Source of the DNA: Aneurinibacillus soli
GTDB taxonomy: Bacteria > Bacillota > Bacilli > Aneurinibacillales > Aneurinibacillaceae
DNA length: 64,000 bases
Direction of reading: 5' to 3'
Assembly (NCBI RefSeq): GCF_002355375.1
Contig: NZ_AP017312.1
Location: 2,373,001-2,437,000, forward strand
Part shown: positions 6,984 through 36,519 of the stretch, one piece after another
How positions within the stretch are numbered: position 1 is the first letter of the stretch
How the letters are laid out: every line of letters starts with the position of its first letter
Notes under the pieces: generated by a model
Seen by the model: the letters and a program-made list of their open reading frames with translations, nothing else
What the model was told of the DNA's origin: nothing
Database searches by the model: none
Made by a program: the position numbers and the translations under genes

Positions 6984-7883
6984 GTGGCAAAATTGAAAGC
7001 AGCCATTATTGGTTCCGGCAATATCGGAACCGATCTCATGTATAAACTGGAGCGTAGTGATGTGCTTGAGCTCACAGCCGTCATCGGCATTGACCCGGAA
7101 TCAGACGGACTAGCGCGTGCGGCAGAACGTGGATATTTGACGTTTGCAAATGGAATTAAAGCGCTTGAGGAAAATCCGGATATCGCTGATGTTGTATTTG
7201 ATGCGACATCAGCTAAAGCGCATGTGCGCCATGCTAAAACATTGCGGGAGCTGGGCAAGCTGGCCATTGATTTGACACCAGCAGCACGCGGCCCGTTTCT
7301 TTCCCCGGTCGTGAATTTAGGGAGCAATCTGGATGCGGATAACGTGAATTTGATTACGTGCGGCGGACAGGCGACCATTCCGATGGTACATGCCATTAAT
7401 CGGGTAGCCGATGTGTCATACGGTGAGATCGTCGCCACCGTTTCAAGTAAAAGCGCAGGTCCTGGCACGCGGGCAAATATCGATGAGTTTACGATTACAA
7501 CGCGTCGTGGGATCGAGGAAGTGGGCGGCGCCGATCGCGGCAAGGCGATTATTATTTTAAATCCGGCTGAGCCACCGATTTTGATGCGGGATACGGTACA
7601 TTGTGAAGTGAAAAACATGGATGAAGAGAAAATTCGTGCGTCCATTGATGAAATGATCACAGAAGTGCAATCGTACGTGCCGGGGTATCGCTTGAAGCAG
7701 GAGCCATTGTTTGATGGCAATCGTGTCACGGTGTTTCTGGAAGTGGAAGGGGCAGGCGATTATTTTCCGCCATATGCCGGTAACCTTGACATCATGACAG
7801 CGGCAGCAGTGCGTGTGGCAGAAGACTTTGCACGTCACAGACTCGCGACAGGAGGAGAACGTTATGAAACGAAACAGCGATAA
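6984..7883 (+). CDS. dmpF: Acetaldehyde dehydrogenase (acylating)
   Basis: A 299-residue NAD-dependent enzyme that turns acetaldehyde into acetyl-CoA, working in a channelling complex with the aldolase DmpG. The N-terminal Rossmann motif GSGNIGTDL and the catalytic cysteine in LITCGGQAT near residue 130 are visible. It starts at GTG 6984 after GAAAGGAGAG. The last 20 bases overlap the aldolase gene, consistent with tightly coupled synthesis of the complex. Length and gene order match the Pseudomonas dmp/xyl operons. Confidence 0.93.
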
Positions 7884-8898
7884 ACCGATTCGGATTACGG
7901 AAGTATGTTTGCGTGATGGGAGCCACAGTGTTGCACATCAGTTTACGGAAGAACAAGTACGCTCCGTGGTGCGTGCTTTAGATGACGCTGGTGTGCACTA
8001 CATTGAGGTATCACATGGAGATGGGCTCGGCGGTTCGACGCTTCAGTATGGCCGCTCGTTGGTCGATGAGATGAAGCTGATTGAAGCAGCGGTGTCGGAG
8101 TGTACAACGTCTAAAATCGCTGTGCTCCAATTACCGGGCATCGGAACGGTACACGAATTGAAGCAGGCGCATGCGCTTGGTGCGAAGCTGGTACGTGTCG
8201 CAACGCATGTTACGGAGGCAGACGTATCGGCTCAGCATATTAATATGGCACGCGAACTGGGCATGGAGACACTCGGCTTTCTGATGATGACGCATACCGC
8301 TACACCAGAAAAGCTGCTGGAGCAGGCGAAATTGATGGAAAGTTACGGGGCGGAAGCAGTCTATGTGACGGATTCTGCGGGGGCGCTACTGCCAGACGAT
8401 GTACGGGAGCGCGTGCGTCTGTTGCGTCAGGAGCTGTCATGTGAAATCGGCTTCCATGCGCACAACAATCTGTCGCTTGCGGTTGCTAATACACTGGCTG
8501 CCATTGAAGAGGGGGCAACCCGTATCGATGGAAGCGTACGCTGCCTCGGTGCGGGAGCGGGGAATACACAGACAGAAGTATTGATCGCGGTACTCGCTCG
8601 TCTTGGAGTGGATACCGGTGTTGATTTATATAAAATGATGGATTTAGCCGAAGACGTGGTCGGTCCGATCTTACCGCGCTCGCAGGAAATCCGCAAAGGC
8701 AGTCTGGTAATGGGCTATGCGGGTGTGTATTCTAGCTTTCTTCTTCATGCGGAGCGGGCGGCTGCTCGCTTTGGCCTGGATGCACGCGATATTCTCGTCG
8801 AGCTTGGCCGTAGGAAAGCGATTGGTGGACAGGAAGATATGATTATCGACGTAGCAGCAGATATTGCCAAACAGCGTAAGCAGGAGGTCGTTCAGTAA
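7864..8898 (+). CDS. dmpG: 4-hydroxy-2-oxovalerate aldolase
   Basis: A 344-residue class II aldolase that splits 4-hydroxy-2-oxovalerate into pyruvate and acetaldehyde, the latter passed to DmpF. It has an HMG-lyase-like TIM barrel with the metal-site sequences CLRDGSH near the start and GFHAHNN in the middle, and a C-terminal communication domain. The upstream-most ATG in frame is outvoted by ATG 7864, which has CAGGAGGAGAACGTT directly before it and gives the normal length. The stop TAA shares its last base with the ATG of the next gene. Confidence 0.93.
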
Positions 8899-9689
8899 TG
8901 AGTTTAACACCAGAACAACTAGAACAATGCGTGGATATTGTGGAACACGGTGAAGCGGAACGCCAAGAAATCGACCGTCTGACAGAACAATATCCGAACT
9001 TGACAATGGAAGAAGCGTATGACATTCAACAGCGCCTCATCGCGCGCAAACAGGAGCAGGGCCAGCGTGTTCTAGGCCGTAAGCTTGGATTAACGAGCCG
9101 TGCCAAGCAGCAGATGATGGGTGTGCATGAGCCGACATACGGCACGCTTGTTGATTATATGCTGATTAATGAGGGTGAACCTGTCTGTTATTCGGAACTG
9201 ATTCACCCGAAAGCAGAGCCAGAAATTGCATTTTATTTAAAAGAAGACCTGGAAGGACCAGCCGTAACCGGTGCACAAGTGCTGGCTGCCACGGAATACG
9301 TGTTTCCTGCGCTTGAAATTATCGATAGCCGATATCGCGATTTTAAATTTACGCTGGTTGATGTGATTGCGGATAATTCATCTTCGGCACGCTATGTGCT
9401 CGGCGGCAAGCCAAGCCGCGTGACCGATCTTGATTTGAGCCTGATGGGCATGGTGTTTTATAAGAACGGGGAGATTGTCGATACAGCAGCAGGAGCAGCT
9501 GTGCTCGGCCATCCGGCAACTGCAGTCGCCTGGCTCGTTCGTAAGCTACATGAACGAGGTGAGAAGCTGTGCAAAGGGGACGTTGTGCTGAGTGGCGCAT
9601 TGACCGGAGCGATTGATTTTCGTCCGGGAGATATCGTACAGGCACACTTTGAAAAACTCGGCAGCGTGACGCTGACGTGCAAGGAGTAG
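8898..9689 (+). CDS. dmpH: 4-oxalocrotonate decarboxylase
   Basis: A 263-residue paralogue of the hydratase at 6173-6958. In the oxalocrotonate branch it decarboxylates 2-oxo-3-hexenedioate to 2-hydroxypentadienoate, usually as a complex with the hydratase. The E-x-E metal site is in PKAEPEIAF. The DSRYRDFKF segment and VLGHP context are closer to DmpH than to DmpE. It is translationally coupled to dmpG (TAATG) and followed 10 bases later by the tautomerase. The hydratase/decarboxylase split is by sequence resemblance; swapped assignments are possible but unlikely. Confidence 0.82.
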   Translation: MSLTPEQLEQCVDIVEHGEAERQEIDRLTEQYPNLTMEEAYDIQQRLIARKQEQGQRVLGRKLGLTSRAKQQMMGVHEPTYGTLVDYMLINEGEPVCYSELIHPKAEPEIAFYLKEDLEGPAVTGAQVLAATEYVFPALEIIDSRYRDFKFTLVDVIADNSSSARYVLGGKPSRVTDLDLSLMGMVFYKNGEIVDTAAGAAVLGHPATAVAWLVRKLHERGEKLCKGDVVLSGALTGAIDFRPGDIVQAHFEKLGSVTLTCKE

Positions 9690-9699
9690 GAGGGAACGT

Positions 9700-9891
9700 A
9701 TGCCGCTTATTCAAATTAATATCGTAGAAGGTCGTTCCGATGAGATGAAGCGCCAGTTGATGAAGAATGTGACAGAGGTTGTGTCCGAAACACTTGGTTC
9801 ACCGAAAGAAGCGATTCGGATTCTGATTAATGAAATGCCGAAAAACCACTGGGGCATTGGTGGAGTACCGATGTCTGATCTCAAAAAATAA
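9700..9891 (+). CDS. dmpI: 4-oxalocrotonate tautomerase
   Basis: A 63-residue protein beginning Met-Pro, where Pro becomes the catalytic N-terminal residue after Met removal. It converts the enol form of 4-oxalocrotonate to its keto form ahead of decarboxylation. Typical family sequence PLIQINIVEGRSDE and a conserved Arg near residue 40 (AIRILINEMP) are present. The length is standard for 4-OT. It lies between the decarboxylase and the semialdehyde dehydrogenase with an AGGAGGGAACGT site. Confidence 0.92.
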   Translation: MPLIQINIVEGRSDEMKRQLMKNVTEVVSETLGSPKEAIRILINEMPKNHWGIGGVPMSDLKK

Positions 9892-9910
9892 GAACAGCGG
9901 AGGAGAACCT

Positions 9911-11389
9911 ATGCCACAGACAAAAGTAGACGTGCGTGAAGTGAAGCTGTATATTAACGGACAATATGTGGATGCGACGTCGAACCGCCTGTTCGATGTG
10001 CATGATCCATCGACAGGGGAGCTAATTGCCCGGGTTCATGAAGCGAGTGAAGCAGACGTACATGATGCGGTCATGGCAGCACGCCGCGCGTTTGAAGAAA
10101 GTGAATGGCGGACGATGCCGGTGAAACAGCGCTGTGCACTTGTGCGTCGGATGGGCGATATTATGATCGAACGGAAGGAAGAATTAGCCCGTCTTGAAGC
10201 ATTAGATGTAGGTAAACCGTATCGTGATGCGCTCGAACACGAAATTCCGCGTGCCGCGAACAATATGAAGTTTTTCGCAGATTTTATTGAACAGCATGGT
10301 TCAGAAGCGTTCCCAGTTGATGATCAGTTCTTGAACTATACGCTGTATGAGCCAGTCGGGGTAGCAGGGTTGATTACGCCGTGGAATCTTCCGTTCATGC
10401 TTACGACATGGAAGCTAGGGCCGTGTCTGGCGACAGGCAATACAGCGGTGATTAAGCCGGCGGAATTAACGCCGCTTACGGTAAGCTTACTTGGCGAAAT
10501 TGCTAAAGAAGCTGGCATTCCAGACGGGGTTGTGAATGTCGTGCAAGGGTTCGGTCCAAGGTCAGCGGGTGAGTTCATGACGACGCACCCGGAGATTGAT
10601 CTGATTACGTTCACAGGCGAGACAGCGACAGGTAAAGCGATCATGAAAGCGGGATCGGATACGTTGAAGCGTGTATCTTTTGAGATGGGCGGCAAAGCAG
10701 CGAACATCGTATTTGCGGATGCAGATCTCGATCAAGCTGTATCGACCTCCATTCGTGCCGCATTTATGAATGCAGGGCAAGTATGTCTGGCAGGTTCGCG
10801 CTTACTTGTACAGCGTGATATTTATAATACGTTCGTTGATAAACTTGTAGAAGCAGCCAGTCGTCTGAAAATCGGTGATCCGCAAGATCCGACTACAAAT
10901 TTGGGACCGCTAATCGGTGAGGAGCATTATCGTAAAGTAACTGGATATTTGGAAGTAGCCGCACAGGATGGAGCAGTGCTTGCATACGGTGGCAGACGTC
11001 CGGAACTGCCGGAACATTTGCAGAACGGCTACTATCTGGAACCGACAATTTATACGCATGTAAGTAACCAAATGCGCGTCTGCCGAGAAGAAATTTTCGG
11101 ACCAGTTGTTGTAGTCGTGCCGTTCGATACGGAAGAGGAAGCGATTCAAATCGCCAACGACACTGAATACGGACTGAATGGGATGCTGTGGACGAGTGAT
11201 GTGAAGCGGGCGCACCGTGTAGCCGCAAAAATTCGGGCTGGTACAATCTGGGTGAACTGCTGGTTCGTGCGCGATTTACGTGCACCGTTCGGGGGCTTCA
11301 AAAAGAGCGGCATCGGACGAGAAGGTGGTAAGTTCAGCCTTGAATTTTTCACAGAAGCAAAAAATGTTTGCGTAAGCTTGGTTGAATAA
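9911..11389 (+). CDS. dmpC: 2-hydroxymuconic semialdehyde dehydrogenase
   Basis: A 492-residue NAD-dependent aldehyde dehydrogenase that oxidises the ring-cleavage product to 4-oxalocrotonate. The TPWNLPFM cofactor motif, general-base Glu in SFEMGGKAA, catalytic Cys in NAGQVCLAGSR and the C-terminal PFGGFKKSGIGREGG are visible. ATG 9911 follows GGAGGAGAACCT; the longer open frame to 9830 overlaps the tautomerase and is unlikely. It is the last gene of the operon. With no DmpD hydrolase in the window, the pathway appears to use only this dehydrogenative branch. Confidence 0.93.
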   Translation: MPQTKVDVREVKLYINGQYVDATSNRLFDVHDPSTGELIARVHEASEADVHDAVMAARRAFEESEWRTMPVKQRCALVRRMGDIMIERKEELARLEALDVGKPYRDALEHEIPRAANNMKFFADFIEQHGSEAFPVDDQFLNYTLYEPVGVAGLITPWNLPFMLTTWKLGPCLATGNTAVIKPAELTPLTVSLLGEIAKEAGIPDGVVNVVQGFGPRSAGEFMTTHPEIDLITFTGETATGKAIMKAGSDTLKRVSFEMGGKAANIVFADADLDQAVSTSIRAAFMNAGQVCLAGSRLLVQRDIYNTFVDKLVEAASRLKIGDPQDPTTNLGPLIGEEHYRKVTGYLEVAAQDGAVLAYGGRRPELPEHLQNGYYLEPTIYTHVSNQMRVCREEIFGPVVVVVPFDTEEEAIQIANDTEYGLNGMLWTSDVKRAHRVAAKIRAGTIWVNCWFVRDLRAPFGGFKKSGIGREGGKFSLEFFTEAKNVCVSLVE

Positions 11390-26415: not shown

Positions 26416-27243
26416 ATGAAAAGGAAACTTTTTCTCGGAACTTTTTTAGCACTACTACTATTTCAAGGCACAAGTTTTGCCGCTCCGTATGATCAATATA
26501 CATCAACGGGGAGGGATACATTTTGGTCGCTTGCGCAGCGGGCAGGAGTACGTGCTTCTGACTTACAAGCGATTAATCCACTCGTTGATCCCAAAAACAT
26601 TTGGAAGGGGTTGCTGATTAATCTTCCGAACGGGCATAAACCAATGCCTGGATTAATCCCCGCGAGTGAAGTATCGAGAAGAACGTATACCGTTCGGAGT
26701 CAGGATACGTTTTGGACGATTTCTAAAAAATTCGGCATCAATTTTTCCTACTTGATACAGGCAAATCCAAAAATCAACGATAAACATAACATCCAACCAG
26801 GATTAGTCATCAATATCCCAACCGTTCCTCCGTCCATTTCGCCCACTGCTAATTGGGAAACAAAGGCGAATTACATCATTGGATTGGCAAAAGACCAGTT
26901 CGATGTCCCGTATGTGTGGGGAGACACCACCCCGTGGGTTGGGTTGGATTGTTCGAGCTTGACGCAATACGTATTTGGTAAAATCGGAGTTAACCTTCCC
27001 CGCACCTCAAATTGGCAATTTCAATATGGAACTCCGGTAGCAAAAGATCAATTACGCAAAGGGGACCTCGTATTTTTTAAGGAACACGGCTCTTCTATCA
27101 TCACGCATGTAGGCATCTATATGGGAAATGATCAAATGATTAATGCGGATACAGGTCCTAAAGATGGCGTGCAGATTGAATACATCTTTGGTGATGATTA
27201 CTATAAAGCTTGTTATGCAGGAGCAAGGCGTTTTATTAAATAA
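26416..27243 (+). CDS. Secreted LysM-NlpC/P60 endopeptidase
   Basis: A 275-residue cell-wall hydrolase. A signal peptide (KRK, hydrophobic core, cleavage near SFA-AP) is followed by two LysM domains (about 29-75 and 93-140) that bind peptidoglycan. The C-terminal NlpC/P60 domain (about 150-275) cleaves the peptide stem. The catalytic Cys is in GLDCSSLTQ and the His in ITHVGIYMG. It resembles LytE/CwlS-type D,L-endopeptidases with fewer LysM repeats. An AGGGGGAACACGC site precedes ATG 26416. It is closed off by its own terminator from the biosynthetic operon that follows. Confidence 0.92.
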   Translation: MKRKLFLGTFLALLLFQGTSFAAPYDQYTSTGRDTFWSLAQRAGVRASDLQAINPLVDPKNIWKGLLINLPNGHKPMPGLIPASEVSRRTYTVRSQDTFWTISKKFGINFSYLIQANPKINDKHNIQPGLVINIPTVPPSISPTANWETKANYIIGLAKDQFDVPYVWGDTTPWVGLDCSSLTQYVFGKIGVNLPRTSNWQFQYGTPVAKDQLRKGDLVFFKEHGSSIITHVGIYMGNDQMINADTGPKDGVQIEYIFGDDYYKACYAGARRFIK

Positions 27244-27316: not shown

Positions 27317-27396
27317 TCCACTCATGTCCGTTTCCTCCATGAGTTCATTTCCATATAAATAAACAAGATAATTTTTAATGAGGGTGAGGTGGATCA

Positions 27397-28053
27397 ATGA
27401 GTGGAAATGTGTTAGTCATTGCCGCTCATCCCGACGATGAACTCCTTGGCACCGGTGGAACGATAAAAAAGCTAATTAATCATGGATGTAAAGTCACCAC
27501 CGTTATTGTCGCAAAAGGACGTAAGGAAGAGGAAGATCACATTCGGCAGTTTATGATAAAAGCAAACAAACACGTAGGAGTAGAAGAGACTGTTTTTTTG
27601 GAATATCCCAATCTATTATTGGAAACCTTTCCGCTACATGTCATCAATAAAGAGATTGAAGCCTTACTGAACAAGTATGAACCCTCTATGATTTTTACTC
27701 ATCATTATGGTGACATTAATCGTGACCATCAAATTCTCTTTCAAGCCGTTCTAACGGCAGCCCGTCCCCTACCTGGAAAACAACCCGTTGAAATTCTTTG
27801 TTTTGAAACGGTTTCTTCTAGCGAATGGACCCAGCACACGAATGATAAAGCATTTAAACCGAATTATTTTGTGGACATTACAGACACAATAGACGAAAAA
27901 CTGAAAGCTCTTCAGTATTATGATATGGAGATGAGGCCGTTTCCTCATCCCCGTTCTTATGAAGGAGTAAAATATTTAGCCCATGTGCGAGGAATGACAG
28001 TAGGAGTTAATTATGCAGAAGCTTTTGAAATCATAAGGAGGGTATGGAAATGA
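27397..28053 (+). CDS. PIG-L family N-acetylglucosaminyl deacetylase
   Basis: A 218-residue zinc deacetylase of the LmbE/PIG-L family, the group that includes MshB and BshB. The metal site AHPDDE is at residues 9-14 with HHYGDINRDHQ near 108-118. It normally removes the acetyl group from GlcNAc-linked small molecules or glycolipids. It is the first gene of a five-gene operon. ATG 27397 has GAGGGTGAGGTGG before it. Its stop overlaps the glycosyltransferase start by 4 bases. A simple bacillithiol role is unlikely because no BshC-like gene is present. Confidence 0.88.
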   Translation: MSGNVLVIAAHPDDELLGTGGTIKKLINHGCKVTTVIVAKGRKEEEDHIRQFMIKANKHVGVEETVFLEYPNLLLETFPLHVINKEIEALLNKYEPSMIFTHHYGDINRDHQILFQAVLTAARPLPGKQPVEILCFETVSSSEWTQHTNDKAFKPNYFVDITDTIDEKLKALQYYDMEMRPFPHPRSYEGVKYLAHVRGMTVGVNYAEAFEIIRRVWK

Positions 28054-29384
28054 CAGATAAGAAGAACCATTCGAATCAAGGTGAACGAATGAGTGAGGTC
28101 TCTTCTAAGTTGATTCCATATCCTTATTTGATTTCTGCAATGGATCAATATTATGGCATAACTCCCTCCTATAAAAAACAATCAGGGACAAAGAAAGCTC
28201 AGGCACAGGCTCAGGCAAAGCCTAGCAAAAAGATGCGTATATTACTTACGACATTTTGGAAGTACCCTGCTGTTGGAGGATTGCAGAATTATTTAACAAT
28301 GCTTAAGTCTGGTTTGGAAGAACTGGGGCATCGTGTTGATATTATTGCTCCCACCCAATTTGAGAGGGATAAACTTACCGGTTTACGCAAGGAAATAAAG
28401 AAAGATAATAAACAATTTTATCGTGACCGATACGGGTGCTATAGTGAAAAGATACTAGATAATGATCGGCATCTCTACAGTTATGAAATGATGTTACGAG
28501 ATATGAATTTAGAGAGATATGATATTTTCCACGCTCAGGATCGGTTTACCGCCAATATACTAGGCGCATTAAACGAACGCTACAAAAAACCACTTCTTTT
28601 CACTCCCCATGGATTTATGACCCATAGCAAATTAAAGTTCAATCTAATCGAAAAGGATTCAATAGAAGCCACATACTTTTTGTCATTGGATAGAAAAGCG
28701 ATTGAAAGTTCAAGCCAGGTAATCATTCTCTGTGAAGCCTTTCGCCCCATTCTAAAAAGTTTAGGTGCCGAGGATAGCCAAATGACAACGGTTTATACCG
28801 GTATCAATTTTAGGGCGGATAACATCGAGCAGAAAGCAAAAATGTTAGAAGACAAAACGATCATTACTTGTATCTCACGTCTTCGTCCTCGTAAAGGACA
28901 TAAATATTTGTTTGAAGCTCTCGCTTTACTTAAAAACCAATTAAAAAATGTTGATGTATGGATTGTAGGGGATGGGGTCATGAGAGAAGAGCTGGAGAAT
29001 CAAGTTCGTGCTCTACAATTAGACAACGTCTTCTTTTTAGGAAGCAGAACCGATGTTCCTGAATTGTTAAGTCAATCCGATATTGTTGTCCTACCAACCA
29101 CGAGTGATACGCTACCGATTTCGATCATTGAGGCTATGTTCGCACAACGAGCGATTATTACGACGAATTGCGGTGGTATACCGGAACTGATTCAAGATTA
29201 TCATTCTGGATTACTTACTGAACCGGGAAACGTTCAACAACTAGCCGAAAAATTATCGCTTCTTTTACACGACTCAACCTTAAGGGAAACAGTAGCCCAA
29301 AATGCCAGAAAGGTTGCCAAAAAACATTTAACCGTTACGAACATGGTAAAAAAAATAGAAGAGGTGTATCGATCGTTACTATAA
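28050..29384 (+). CDS. GT4 family glycosyltransferase
   Basis: A 444-residue glycosyltransferase of the GT-B fold. The acceptor-side Gly-rich loop PAVGGLQNYLTMLK lies near residues 70-83 and the donor-side E-x7-E type region around SIIEAMFAQRAIITTNCGGIPELI near 365-388. About 60 residues of extra, Gln/Ala/Lys-rich N-terminus precede the fold. ATG 28050 is preferred to 28044 because AAGGAGGG lies seven bases before it. Coupled to the deacetylase by overlap, it could make the GlcNAc-containing intermediate that the PIG-L enzyme then de-acetylates, as BshA and BshB do. The sugar and acceptor are unknown. Confidence 0.88.
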   Translation: MTDKKNHSNQGERMSEVSSKLIPYPYLISAMDQYYGITPSYKKQSGTKKAQAQAQAKPSKKMRILLTTFWKYPAVGGLQNYLTMLKSGLEELGHRVDIIAPTQFERDKLTGLRKEIKKDNKQFYRDRYGCYSEKILDNDRHLYSYEMMLRDMNLERYDIFHAQDRFTANILGALNERYKKPLLFTPHGFMTHSKLKFNLIEKDSIEATYFLSLDRKAIESSSQVIILCEAFRPILKSLGAEDSQMTTVYTGINFRADNIEQKAKMLEDKTIITCISRLRPRKGHKYLFEALALLKNQLKNVDVWIVGDGVMREELENQVRALQLDNVFFLGSRTDVPELLSQSDIVVLPTTSDTLPISIIEAMFAQRAIITTNCGGIPELIQDYHSGLLTEPGNVQQLAEKLSLLLHDSTLRETVAQNARKVAKKHLTVTNMVKKIEEVYRSLL

Positions 29385-29399
29385 CAGGAGGAAGAAGAA

Positions 29400-30581
29400 A
29401 TGCAACATGATATTCCGGCAGTTGTCCTTGATTTGAGTGCAACGGGGATCGGTATTGTTCGGAGTTTGAAAGAAAAGGGAATTCGAGTTTATGCGTATGA
29501 TACGAAAGGGAAATATGAAATCGGAAAAACCTGGCATGCGACCTGCGGTATTTGTCCCAATCCCGCCTCTGAGGAAGAGGAACTACTTCGATTTTTAACG
29601 AGTATCGGAAAAAACTTTGCGGAGAAAGCGGTACTTTATGCCGGTTCTGATGACTTTGTTCAGTTTATTTCCAAATACAGAACGGAATTATCTCGATACT
29701 ATCGTTTCCTACTCCCAGAACACTCACTCGTTGAAGCAGTGTTAGATAAAAGATTAACGTATGAATTGGCTCGCAAGCATAACATTCCATGTCCTAAAAC
29801 ATTTGTGATTCACGATGAGCATCAGCTTGAACAAATCATTCATGAAGTTACCTTTCCTTGTATTTTAAAACCGGTCTATTCTTCCGATTTCCGTAAACGA
29901 ATCGATCACCGGCTGTATAAAAAAGCAATCATGGTAGAGCAGGCATCAGAATTGCGAGAAGGATATCTTTTTTATCGCCAATTTGGCGAACTAATGATTC
30001 AAGAAGTGATCCCCGGAAATGAGGCGTGCATTTATTCCGTTAAAACATTTTTTGATGAACAGATGAACGTAATCGGTGTATGGATGAATCAAAAAATTCA
30101 TCAATTCCCCCCTCACTTTGGCTCCACGGCTCTTGCCCTAAGTGTAAGAGATGAAGAAGTGGTGGAGGCATGTGTATCATTCTTGAATGAACTACAATTC
30201 AAAGGATTAGCGATCACAGAATTTAAAAAAGATCCAAGGGATGGGAAGTTAAAATTTATTGAAATCAATCCAAGAATTGGGTTAACACAAAGGCTATCAA
30301 TTGCTTGTGGCGTTGATTTAGCCTACTTGTATTATTTGTCGCTAACCGATCAGAACCCATCGCCGGTAAATAGACAAAAAGAGGGAATCAAGTGGGTGTA
30401 TTTGGTCCGTGATTTTCTTTCTTTCCGTCAAAAGCAAAAAAATGGGGAGATGACGTTCACCGAATGGATAAAGTGTTTATCAGGAGGAGAGAAGGTAGAA
30501 GCTCTGTTTGCCTGGGATGATCCTTTGCCGTTTGTGAGGAGTTTTACCTCGCACTTGCGTAATTTATGGATAAGGAAATAG
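29400..30581 (+). CDS. ATP-grasp ligase
   Basis: A 393-residue ATP-grasp enzyme of the type related to D-aspartate ligases and carbamoyl-phosphate-synthase-like proteins. There is an N-terminal pre-ATP domain beginning with a DLSATGIGIVRSL nucleotide-binding turn, a central ATP lid (PCILKPVYSSD near 157-167) and the metal-binding KFIEINPRIG near 284-293. Such enzymes join a carboxylate to an amine through an acyl-phosphate. Placed after a deacetylase that would expose an amino sugar, it could attach an amino acid or other acid there. This is inference. It starts 15 bases after the glycosyltransferase with AGGAGGAAGAA. Confidence 0.85.
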   Translation: MQHDIPAVVLDLSATGIGIVRSLKEKGIRVYAYDTKGKYEIGKTWHATCGICPNPASEEEELLRFLTSIGKNFAEKAVLYAGSDDFVQFISKYRTELSRYYRFLLPEHSLVEAVLDKRLTYELARKHNIPCPKTFVIHDEHQLEQIIHEVTFPCILKPVYSSDFRKRIDHRLYKKAIMVEQASELREGYLFYRQFGELMIQEVIPGNEACIYSVKTFFDEQMNVIGVWMNQKIHQFPPHFGSTALALSVRDEEVVEACVSFLNELQFKGLAITEFKKDPRDGKLKFIEINPRIGLTQRLSIACGVDLAYLYYLSLTDQNPSPVNRQKEGIKWVYLVRDFLSFRQKQKNGEMTFTEWIKCLSGGEKVEALFAWDDPLPFVRSFTSHLRNLWIRK

Positions 30582-30611
30582 GATGATGCTCTTGAAGGTG
30601 GAACGTTCAGA

Positions 30612-31706
30612 ATGTATAGAAGCGAGGGGATTGTTCCGTTGAGCAGTAAAGAAGAAATTTTAAACAATTGGCAAAAATTTCGTTGGGGAGATAAGCTTAC
30701 ATCTGTTTTCGGTAATACGGTTACGTTAGTGGATCATCAAATAGAAACTCTCAAAGACTCGCGAAAAAAAACGAGTATTTGGAAACTAGTTGTTACGGAT
30801 GGGATTGAATCTATTCCGGTTGTTCTTAAAATTTTCAAACTGCCACTGAAAGAAAATCAAATGGTTGAAATTAATATGTATCAGAGAGCTTATACACTTT
30901 TGCAGGAATTTATGCCGCAAATGTATTGGATCGAGAATGTAAACAAGGAAGAAATCTGGTTATTCACACAGTATGTAAAGCCATTACGCGGACAAATCAA
31001 ATTAGTCCCAAAACATTTGGAACAAATCATTCCTACCGTAGCAAATTTTCATGCCCTCACATTTGAAAATCGTTTTTTGCAGCATGCACACGTTTTCGAT
31101 TCCTGGCTTCCCCGTTATGATTCAAAATTGATCACGTTGGAGAGAAGTAAACATATCGAAAAAACAAAGGAGTATCTCGACAAGGCCATGAAAGAACCTG
31201 GTCTAAGAGAAATGGTGGAACCTAGCTATAACGTTATCCACAAAATATTGCAAAAAGGTCCTATCTTTTTCCCTGAAATTATGGAGGCAGGGCAAAGTCT
31301 CATACACGGTGATCTCCATATTCACAATGTTTGCTGTACAAACGTAAATGAACAGCAAGCCTGGCCGATTCAATTGATTGATTGGGAGTCTGTGAAATAT
31401 GCTCCGGTCTGGTATGACCTGGTGGTTCTTGTTGAATTATTAATTGACTTCCGTAAAGATTGGCATAAGAAAGCCGAAGACATTCGCAGTCATTGTGTTC
31501 ATTTATATAGTAAAGAGATGCAAAGTAAGGGAATTGTCTTCCATGAGGATCCACTGAACTTGTTAAAAATGACCTATTTGCAGAGAGTTTTAGAAAAGCG
31601 GCTGCTTAATCATTTGCGCAGGGTATTGAACGGAGAAAAGAGCGCACTCCTAGGAAGATACCTGGAGAAAATCGTACTCTGGGGAAAAGAACTTGGACTT
31701 CTATAA
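30612..31706 (+). CDS. APH-type phosphotransferase (aminoglycoside/choline kinase fold)
   Basis: A 364-residue protein with a protein-kinase-like fold of the APH family. The Brenner motif LIHGDLHIHN is near 229-238 and the metal-binding IQLIDWESV near 254-262; an N-terminal ATP-binding lobe carries VVLKIFKLP. Relatives phosphorylate small molecules or, as CotS/CotI-type proteins, act in spore coat assembly. In this operon it might phosphorylate the sugar product. It starts 30 bases after the ligase gene. Confidence 0.82.
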   Translation: MYRSEGIVPLSSKEEILNNWQKFRWGDKLTSVFGNTVTLVDHQIETLKDSRKKTSIWKLVVTDGIESIPVVLKIFKLPLKENQMVEINMYQRAYTLLQEFMPQMYWIENVNKEEIWLFTQYVKPLRGQIKLVPKHLEQIIPTVANFHALTFENRFLQHAHVFDSWLPRYDSKLITLERSKHIEKTKEYLDKAMKEPGLREMVEPSYNVIHKILQKGPIFFPEIMEAGQSLIHGDLHIHNVCCTNVNEQQAWPIQLIDWESVKYAPVWYDLVVLVELLIDFRKDWHKKAEDIRSHCVHLYSKEMQSKGIVFHEDPLNLLKMTYLQRVLEKRLLNHLRRVLNGEKSALLGRYLEKIVLWGKELGLL

Positions 31707-31731
31707 TAGAAATGAAGGAGAGGGATTAGGA

Positions 31732-32295
31732 ATGGAAGATTTCAAGGATATAGTAACTAAGAATAACGGAACAGTCAGCGTTCAACATCTAAAAGGATAC
31801 AGACAGATAGGCCAGGGAGGGGATGGAACGATCTATCAATTGACTTCTGAGCGGTGCGTCAAAATTTTTTATGAGGAAGAAACTCAACAAAGGGAGTTGG
31901 AGGCACTACAGGTGGGACAATTATCTTCCGTTATTCCCCGGCTTTATGAGTATGGCTCAAACTATATAGTCATGGAGTATGTGAACGGAACTTCTCTTAA
32001 GAAGATCGCAAAAAAAGAGCGGCAATTGTCTGAATCAATCGTAAGGAAAATTTTATTCATGCTGGAAGAAATGAAAAGAGTGGGATTTGCGAGACACGAT
32101 ACGGAGGTTCGTCACATTTTATTCAATGAGCAGGGGGAAATAAAAGTAATCGATCACAAGCGGGCGTTGACTTCAGCTAGAACTGTTCCTACTAAATTAG
32201 TAGCTGGATTAAAAAAGATGGGGGTTTTAAAAGAGTTTTTGGAACATGTGAATAAGCTTTGCCCATCTCTTTATGAGGAATGGAAACACATTTAA
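31732..32295 (+). CDS. Small protein-kinase-like protein
   Basis: A 187-residue protein with eukaryotic-type kinase lobes in reduced form. A Gly-rich loop GQGGDGTIYQL is near 25-35 and an ATP-binding Lys in CVKIFYEEE. The catalytic loop has HDTEVRHILF in place of HRDxxxxN, and the metal motif DFG is replaced by DHK. This resembles short YrzF/Bud32-like kinases of Bacillales. ATG 31732 is chosen because GGAGAGGGATTAGGA precedes it; the longer frame from 31693 overlaps the APH gene. It is the last gene of the operon and is followed by a terminator. Confidence 0.72.
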   Translation: MEDFKDIVTKNNGTVSVQHLKGYRQIGQGGDGTIYQLTSERCVKIFYEEETQQRELEALQVGQLSSVIPRLYEYGSNYIVMEYVNGTSLKKIAKKERQLSESIVRKILFMLEEMKRVGFARHDTEVRHILFNEQGEIKVIDHKRALTSARTVPTKLVAGLKKMGVLKEFLEHVNKLCPSLYEEWKHI

Positions 32296-32301
32296 TAAGA
32301 A

Positions 32302-32344
32302 GAAGCCAGCGTATATGGGAACGGTCCATGCGCTGGCTTTTTCT
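32302..32344 (+). terminator. Terminator of the five-gene operon
   Basis: GAAGCCAGCG pairs with CGCTGGCTTTTTC across a loop of about 20 bases that has some internal pairing. A U-rich tail follows. Confidence 0.88.
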
Positions 32345-32522
32345 TATTGGTAAAGATTGCAGCTTTCGTCCTTAGCTAGAGTTCATTTGGATGTCCGATT
32401 CACTTGAACGAAAATTATAATATGCAAAATTTTCTTTTTTTCTAAAATTCACACATTTATCTGGTATGATAGTCATGTTTATTATGTTGCTATAGGATGA
32501 TAGAGAGAGAGGGGTCGCTAGA

Positions 32523-34556: not shown

Positions 34557-36519
34557 ACGTCTTGAGCGTGTTCGCTAGCTCAATAAAGAAAGAAAGCGAA
34601 TCAGGATTGCTCATCGAACCAGGACTTACACAGTTCTCTAGCGGGAAACCAAGCAGAATTTTACGGATTGGCACCTCCATCTTCTTACCATTTACGGTAC
34701 GTGGAATTTGCTGAACGTGATAGATTTCATCTGGAATATGGCGGGAAGACGCCAGTTTGCCGATCCTTGTTTTGATTCGCTGCTTGAGTTCATCCGTAAG
34801 AGAGACACCGTCTTTGAGAACGACAAAGCAGGGCATAAAAGATTTTCTTCCTACGTACTCCAGATCGACAACTAAACTGTCAAGAACTTCATCCAATCCT
34901 TCCGTCGCTTGATACATTTCACTTGTTCCCATGCGAACTCCCTGGCGGTTAATCGTGGAGTCCGAGCGTCCGTAGATGACACAGCTGCCCGTTGATTTGA
35001 TTTTGATCCAATCACCATGCCGCCACAAACCGGGGAACAGCTCAAAGTAGCTCTCGCGGTAGCGGCTTCCGCCTAGGTCATTCCAGAAATAAACCGGCAT
35101 TGTGGGCATCGGAAGAGTAATGACGAGTTCTCCTACTTCATCCAAAACAGGGTTTCCTGCGTCATTGAAGGCTTCCACTTTCGCTCCTAATAGTCGACAT
35201 TGTATTTCCCCGGCTCGCACTGGCAGGATGGGAGTTCCACCCACAAAGCCTGTACATACATCCGTTCCTCCGCTCGTACAGTTTACCCATATATCTTTTT
35301 TTACAGCCGTATAGAGCCATTCATATCCGTCCGGGGTCAGCGGTGCTCCGGTTACGCCGATGTTTTGCAGCTTGGTTAGATTGAACTGTTTCCCTGGATG
35401 AAGGCCTGATTTCATGCAGATCCCAATAAGCGCAGGACTAATGCCCAGCGAGGAAATCTCCGTTTTTTCCGCAAGTTCCCATAGAACATGAGGTCCTGGA
35501 TAGGTAGGACTTCCATCATATTGCACAATCGTTGCCCCAACAAGAAGAGAACCGACCACATAATTCCACATCATCCAGCCGGTTGTAGTAAACCAGAATA
35601 AACGATCTTTTGAAGTAAGTCCTTGCTGAATCGCGAAGGTAGTTAGGTGCTGAAGAATGATCCCTCCTTGAGGGTGCACGATTGCTTTTGGGATGCCGGT
35701 TGTGCCGGACGAATACAAAATCCATAACGGATGATCGAATGGCAGATGCTCATAGGTGAGTTCTGTTTCCTCCTCGATAAGGTTCTCAAACAGTAACGCT
35801 TCTGTATCCGACTTATCATAAACATACGAGACAAGAATGGTTTTTTCTAAACCGGGAAGTGATGCCTGTAGTTCGCTAATTACAGCTCTTCTGTCATGTA
35901 GTTTCCCGTTATACCGATAGCCATCGACTGTGATCAATACTTTCGGTTCGATTTGCCGGAAGCGGTCAATGACGCTTGGTGTCCCGAAATCAGGTGAGCA
36001 GCTTGACCAGATCGCACCGATGCTGGCACAAGCTAAAAAAGCAATAATCGCTTGCGGAATGTTTGGCAGATAAGCCGCCACGCGATCGCCAGGTACTACT
36101 CCCATGTCTCTCAAGTTCTGGGCAAAAGAAGCCGTTTGTCTCTTGAGTTCGCACCAGGACATCTCGGTTAACGGTACATGTTCGGATTGAAATACAATGG
36201 CAGGACTTGTATCCGAAGCGTGTCTGAATACATGCTCCGCATAATTCAGCCTAGCTCCTGTAAACCATCTGGCTCCAGGCATGACGAGTTTTTCCAGCAC
36301 CGTTGTATACGGAGCTAGAGACTGAATTCCGTGATACTGCCAGGCGCTTTCCCAGAAATCCTCCAGTGACTCCACAGACCATGTCCACAGGGCGTTGTAA
36401 TCTGGAAACGATAAGCCTTTGTTATCTTTCAACCAGGTCGTAAACTTGTGAATGCCGGAATTCTGTATCCGTTCTTGATCGGGTTGCCAGAGAAGAGTCC
36501 CTTCTGTAATCGCTGTCAT
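34555..36519 (-). CDS. Acetoacetyl-CoA synthetase
   Basis: A 654-residue adenylate-forming ligase that activates acetoacetate to acetoacetyl-CoA. The P-loop-like motif ILYSSGTTGIPKAIVH near 265-280, the GWMMWNYVVG signature, the YGRSDSTINRQGVRMG hinge segment near 536-551 and the C-terminal Lys in RTVNGKKMEVP are visible. Length is normal for acetoacetate-CoA ligases. It would let the cell use acetoacetate or ketone-type intermediates. It is read alone from a divergent region shared with the guanidine riboswitch transcript. Confidence 0.93.
   Translation of the reverse strand: MTAITEGTLLWQPDQERIQNSGIHKFTTWLKDNKGLSFPDYNALWTWSVESLEDFWESAWQYHGIQSLAPYTTVLEKLVMPGARWFTGARLNYAEHVFRHASDTSPAIVFQSEHVPLTEMSWCELKRQTASFAQNLRDMGVVPGDRVAAYLPNIPQAIIAFLACASIGAIWSSCSPDFGTPSVIDRFRQIEPKVLITVDGYRYNGKLHDRRAVISELQASLPGLEKTILVSYVYDKSDTEALLFENLIEEETELTYEHLPFDHPLWILYSSGTTGIPKAIVHPQGGIILQHLTTFAIQQGLTSKDRLFWFTTTGWMMWNYVVGSLLVGATIVQYDGSPTYPGPHVLWELAEKTEISSLGISPALIGICMKSGLHPGKQFNLTKLQNIGVTGAPLTPDGYEWLYTAVKKDIWVNCTSGGTDVCTGFVGGTPILPVRAGEIQCRLLGAKVEAFNDAGNPVLDEVGELVITLPMPTMPVYFWNDLGGSRYRESYFELFPGLWRHGDWIKIKSTGSCVIYGRSDSTINRQGVRMGTSEMYQATEGLDEVLDSLVVDLEYVGRKSFMPCFVVLKDGVSLTDELKQRIKTRIGKLASSRHIPDEIYHVQQIPRTVNGKKMEVPIRKILLGFPLENCVSPGSMSNPDSLSFFIELANTLKT

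Follow-up and report, generated by a model that had tools for sequence, protein, structure and literature searches.

A horizontally spread five-gene operon of Aneurinibacillus soli is a candidate spore-surface glycan cassette

Spore-surface glycan loci are already known. The antABCD sugar operons of the Bacillus cereus group build a nucleotide sugar, and we know of no PIG-L or ATP-grasp partners in the CotS, CotI(YtaA) and CotSA loci of B. subtilis. The exosporium of the B. cereus group carries GalNAc-Rha-Rha-Rha-anthrose on BclA (PMC10050317), and Clostridioides difficile has HexSDF, a three-gene operon for an aminohexosyl glycolipid (PMC10128005). In B. megaterium, all exosporium-less strains were without plasmid pBM600, a link drawn from plasmid-cured strains and thus from plasmid loss rather than gene deletion; a need for pBM500 as well was not ruled out, and the plasmid genes needed for the exosporium were left open in 2015 (Manetsberger et al., PMC4674009). 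The gene combination described below is unnamed in the literature searched, where we found no paper on it or on PIG-L/ATP-grasp spore loci.

The DNA analyzed here is a stretch of 64,000 nucleotides (the window) from a complete 4.1 Mb genome. Five genes, A to E, all on the plus strand, form one tight operon (27397-32295) with a strong terminator (Table 1), and each is preceded by a purine-rich site. An earlier note made from the letters alone had described five genes in one operon with one terminator; all five ORFs were confirmed and its spacing proved exact, with A and B overlapping by 4 bases and later gaps of 15, 30 and 25 bases. The start of gene B was set at the ATG at 28050, 7 nt from AGGAGGG, rather than at the beginning of the longest ORF (28044), giving the 4-base overlap with A and a good ribosome site. 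The longest ORF of gene E begins at TTG 31693, and its start was set at ATG 31732, the position whose counterpart opens the gene in G006, a close relative. A simple terminator scan had no match at the end of the operon; folding detected the terminator there, with none of 200 shuffles as good. A further terminator separates the operon from an upstream gene (26416-27243) encoding an NlpC/P60 hydrolase with two LysM domains.

Table 1. Features of the operon and its borders, in window coordinates.
Feature	Position	Strand	Description
Gene A	27397..28053	+	PIG-L / LmbE-type zinc de-N-acetylase, 218 aa
Gene B	28050..29384	+	GT4 glycosyltransferase, N-terminal motif PYPYLxxxMDxYYG, Lys-rich linker
Gene C	29400..30581	+	ATP-grasp carboxylate-amine ligase, 393 aa, invariant CxxCPxP motif
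Gene D	30612..31706	+	APH / fructosamine-kinase-fold phosphotransferase, 364 aa
Gene E	31732..32295	+	small protein-kinase / RIO-Bud32-like protein, 187 aa
Operon intrinsic terminator	32296..32345	+	fold -30.6 kcal/mol, z -6.9
Terminator of preceding LysM-NlpC/P60 gene	27281..27306	+	terminator scan
Conserved upstream region CATxTCC ... CATATA	27324..27386	+	shared by the window clade and Bacillaceae relatives; alignment of six upstream regions

Pfam models recognized the families PIG-L, GT4, ATP-grasp and APH and, for E, a small kinase-like protein. Every one of the five has intact catalytic motifs, with catalytic residues invariant across 23-28 sequences. In protein A (PF02585 PIG-L, 1.2e-22), AHPDDE (H11, D13, D14) and H111 do not vary among 27 orthologues; in the PDB it is distantly related to diacetylchitobiose deacetylases and to BshB-type enzymes. 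Protein B (PF00534 Glycos_transf_1, 8.4e-42) has H189, R279, K284, D355 and E363 invariant in 26 orthologues (numbering from 28044). Its N-terminal motif is also present in B2, a paralogue encoded at many related loci. Window positions 28050-28200 and the B and B2 genes of loci L032-L037 and L071-L090 encode a common start of approximately P-x-L-x-x-x-M/L-D-x-Y-Y/F, then a Lys-rich linker; all other locus ORFs yielded one match, a fragment just upstream of B in L083 (7558-7794). The shared motif may be a docking or anchoring peptide.

Protein C matches the ATP-grasp models PF15632, PF02786 and PF02655 at 4e-7 to 3e-6. Residues K117, K157, E202, E274, K276, E288, N290, R292, C49 and C52 are invariant in 27 orthologues, and conservation of the ATP and Mg ligands among them (K117, K157, E202, E274, E288 and N290; 27 sequences) agrees with a place for C among the ATP-grasp ligases. 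The CxxCPxP motif of its N-terminal domain (residues 49-55; 29544-29564), kept in 27 orthologues, can be made out in L091 and L092 too, which are more distant. Structure prediction for C, made from only five closely related sequences, reached pLDDT 40. Protein D (PF01636 APH, 4.7e-10) has K73, E86, HxDLHxxN (H232-N239) and D257 invariant in 28 orthologues. The best Foldseek match in the PDB to its model (pLDDT 66) was 2q83, YtaA of B. subtilis (E 9.8e-6), at only 15% identity and from a model of modest confidence; we take YtaA to be the coat protein CotI. The earlier note had pointed to CotS-like kinases of Bacillales coats. D shares the APH fold with YtaA, but NCBIfam results for D and six orthologues contained no CotS match up to E = 1, and on sequence we reject membership of D in the CotS family. 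Protein E, searched as the longer ORF from 31693, scored just under the cut-off for PF00069 Pkinase (1.6e-7) and also matched PF03109 ABC1 (8.6e-7); K44, E55, D123 and D141 are invariant in 23 orthologues.

We read 28 loci (the window, L032-L037, L071-L090 and L104). The earlier note had tied its operon to linkage of the genes in relatives, and linkage is what we found: A-B-C-D are consecutive, in the same order and on one strand in 27/28. A was not found at L074, and B and C are fused at L088. Gene E lies close by in 23 loci, a second GT4 gene (B2) follows D in 14, and a GalE-type epimerase gene stands beside B2 in 8. Chance linkage is ruled out because the genes are linked in independent genomes. 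The L088 fusion (7696-10173), a single open frame of 826 aa holding GT4 and ATP-grasp, supports a joint action of the two enzymes. At two loci the epimerase gene between D and E is in pieces (L035, 12379-13680; L036, 12381-13279), a sign that this step is decaying there. Distant ATP-grasp homologues (E ~1e-62 to 1e-48) without partner genes in the neighborhoods read were excluded from the family. A distant ATP-grasp paralogue (27% identity) belongs to another, polysaccharide-like cluster (L103; G000:C1:3851000-3870000), where its companions are a GT4-like protein of 577 aa and a deacetylase-like protein; similar pairings occur in L105-L107.

Only 2/7 genomes of the window's genus have an orthologue of C, and sampling of other members of the family and order turned up none. 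Scanning the genome collection returned four Bacillaceae loci with C at 78-79% identity; within the order of one of these matches, 22/397 genomes carry the cassette, and a C homologue is present in 37 Priestia plasmid records. The tree of C groups the window and G006 with Bacillus sp. OV166, BA3, Peribacillus and Neobacillus in one clade (support 100/99). RpoB of the window genome, by contrast, shares 93% identity with its counterpart in a cassette-free genus member and only 79-81% with those of the Bacillaceae carriers. G+C content is 39% in the operon and 47% and 43% in the DNA on either side. Because the clade of C contradicts RpoB similarity and the operon is lower in G+C, horizontal acquisition of the window copy is the simplest reading. 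In our reading, the five genes are a conserved cassette that has spread horizontally among spore formers. Strong orthologues of the LysM-NlpC/P60 gene are confined, within the genus, to the two operon-carrying genomes; the gene may have been acquired together with the operon, although elsewhere it is no part of the cassette.

Evidence on the role of the cassette came from its neighbors in other lineages. A homologous copy resides on pBM600 of Priestia megaterium QM B1551, with proteins 66, 51, 52, 47 and 55% identical to window A, B, C, D and E, respectively; its A-D block spans NC_014031.1 29342-33536, and the E-like kinase gene is at 35373-35942. Neighbors on Priestia plasmids include CotX-family coat proteins, DUF4183 proteins and other glycosyltransferases; a C1q-domain protein is encoded near the cassette on pBM600, and CotX is found at L032. 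In another lineage (L085), a collagen/BclA_C-like protein adjoins E. Coat or exosporium structural genes (CotX, C1q-like, DUF4183, BclA-like) are neighbors of the cassette in two lineages. None lies directly beside the window copy, and L034-L037 have no obvious coat neighbors as judged by eye. The BclA_C family occurs in 12/22 carriers versus 85/375 other genomes (p = 0.0017, relatedness ignored), and the window genome encodes BclA_C domains too, at 3100534-3101700, a long way from the operon. Sporulation itself discriminates little, since spoIVA is present in 382/397 sampled genomes. A divergent pair of unnamed proteins adjoins the cassette at L085 (12247-15471) and L086 (5911-9587), and C alone at L091 (10352-12019). 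They share a GDxxxxYAG...GxFxxxxxxxxIWID-like motif and long charged stretches, those tested had no Pfam or NCBIfam match, and they could possibly be spore-surface acceptor proteins. On pBM600, a second small kinase-like ORF of 165 aa (L134, 24744-25238), with no Pfam match, adjoins the E homologue.

Collectively, these observations favor the idea of a mobile cassette for a spore-surface glycan, of which the window operon would be one copy, and to this idea we assign a probability of roughly 60%. The earlier note had offered a spore-coat or envelope glycan locus as its second choice; the Priestia plasmid neighborhoods, including that of pBM600, support it, as do the BclA-like neighbor at L085, the match of D to YtaA (through a modest model) and an excess of promoter elements of the sigma-K type. 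The sigma-K -10 pattern CATANNNTA occurs in the 150 bp preceding E or A for 22/44 Bacillales cassette genes versus 18/149 control genes (p = 4e-7); combined with a relaxed -35 the counts were 17/44 versus 10/149 (p = 1e-6), and with a strict -35 the signal was weak (6/44 versus 6/149, p = 0.03), all by statistics that ignore relatedness. The pattern also lies upstream of A on pBM600 and upstream of both E and A in Cytobacillus. Sigma-E promoters were not enriched upstream of cassette genes (1/44 versus 3/149). The upstream region of the window copy gave no match in the sigma-E/K scan; it shares its CATATA block with Bacillaceae relatives, and no sigma factor can be confidently assigned there.

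The lack of a sigma-K element at the window copy would suit a vegetative locus for modification of the cell envelope or an exopolysaccharide that lies near plasmid spore genes by chance. Such loci contain these generic families, and the product of the upstream LysM-NlpC/P60 gene acts on the cell wall. That gene, however, is not conserved with the cassette and a terminator stands between them, sigma-K-type elements occur in relatives, and no polymerase or flippase gene was seen in or beside the conserved cassette. We therefore regard a vegetative role as unlikely.

For a spore-surface glycan cassette, general knowledge of the enzyme families suggests a sequence of reactions. GT4 enzymes are retaining sugar transferases, and PIG-L enzymes remove the N-acetyl group of HexNAc. 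ATP-grasp enzymes couple carboxylates to amines via an acyl phosphate, and kinases of the APH fold act on hydroxyl groups of sugars or small molecules. In the mother cell during sporulation, B (with B2 where present) would transfer HexNAc from a nucleotide sugar to an exosporium or outer-coat acceptor. In some relatives the GalE-type epimerase would supply the donor, probably UDP-GalNAc: at the position of E. coli GalE Tyr299, aligned by eye on the following KA, the linked epimerase has Ser or Cys, which fits N-acetylated sugars and suggests a HexNAc donor. The zinc deacetylase A would then strip the N-acetyl group and expose a free amine, to which ligase C would couple a carboxylic acid or amino acid; kinase D would phosphorylate the sugar, and E would have coat proteins as its targets or regulate the pathway. 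The product we propose is a HexNAc glycan, located in the exosporium or outer coat, that has lost its N-acetyl group, carries an amide cap and is phosphorylated. Support is fairly good for the spore-surface location; we infer the product and its chemistry, the substrates, the sequence of steps and expression in the mother cell.

A narrower identification can be imagined. Spore coats of B. megaterium reportedly contain a galactosamine-6-phosphate polymer, and the cassette might make this amino-sugar-phosphate glycan of the outer spore layers: UDP-GalNAc from the epimerase would be used for transfer by the GT4 enzyme, de-N-acetylation would leave galactosamine and D would phosphorylate it, with the ATP-grasp amide bond capping the amine or tying the glycan to a peptide or protein. 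A literature search on galactosamine-6-phosphate in spores returned nothing relevant, and we consider the identification doubtful. If true, it would assign genes to the polymer and show ATP-grasp chemistry put to a new use, in a spore glycan.

The GT4 and PIG-L pair is also common to BshA and BshB, and the earlier note had put forward a conjugate resembling bacillithiol. The cassette follows the BshA-BshB-BshC logic of a GT4 step and then a PIG-L deacetylase, but has an ATP-grasp ligase and a kinase instead of BshC. The matches to the Bsh models are weak, missing the cut-offs by more than half: A scored 58.8 bits against 182.5 for BshB1 and 52.7 against 195.25 for BshB2, and B scored 109.9 bits against the BshA equivalog cut-off of 273.7. 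Moreover, bona fide BshA and BshC over cut-off are encoded elsewhere in all 26 genomes searched (24 carriers and two cassette-free genus members). Because the hosts hold another BshA and BshC, the cassette does not supply the bacillithiol pathway; together with the family cut-offs this rules out a role there and leaves the proposed conjugate unsupported. A different soluble molecule of this kind, in which a sugar-acid conjugate made by B would be deacetylated by A, receive an acyl group or amino acid from C and be phosphorylated by D, is quite improbable given these results; the second GT4 in many relatives suits a glycan better, and the coat and exosporium neighbors also argue against it. A conflict or defense module of Ter-type ATP-grasp, conflict GT4 and kinase, hinted at by a weak ATPgrasp_Ter match of C, a sub-threshold GT4-conflict match of the L088 fusion and weak matches of E to kinase-containing PADLOC models, is highly implausible, as A-D have no PADLOC match, the matches of E reflect a generic kinase domain and no Ter genes were seen in the loci read.

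As a spore-surface glycan locus, the cassette provides a concrete candidate gene set on pBM600 for the exosporium, and the homologous copy on this exosporium-linked plasmid makes the idea directly testable. Its predicted chemistry of deacetylation, amide ligation and phosphorylation is assigned to no spore glycan in the literature searched. The cassette resembles B. subtilis CotS, CotI(YtaA) and CotSA in pairing an APH-fold kinase with a GT4 enzyme in a putative spore-surface role, and differs in that D matches no CotS model. With the antABCD operons it would plausibly share an exosporium location and a decorated amino sugar, but it consists of GT4, deacetylase, ATP-grasp and kinase genes. HexSDF of C. 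difficile acts on a membrane lipid acceptor, has a deacetylase annotated as polysaccharide deacetylase and lacks ATP-grasp and kinase genes in its three-gene operon, yet there too an N-acetylhexose is transferred and then deacetylated, which leaves a free amino sugar (PMC10128005).
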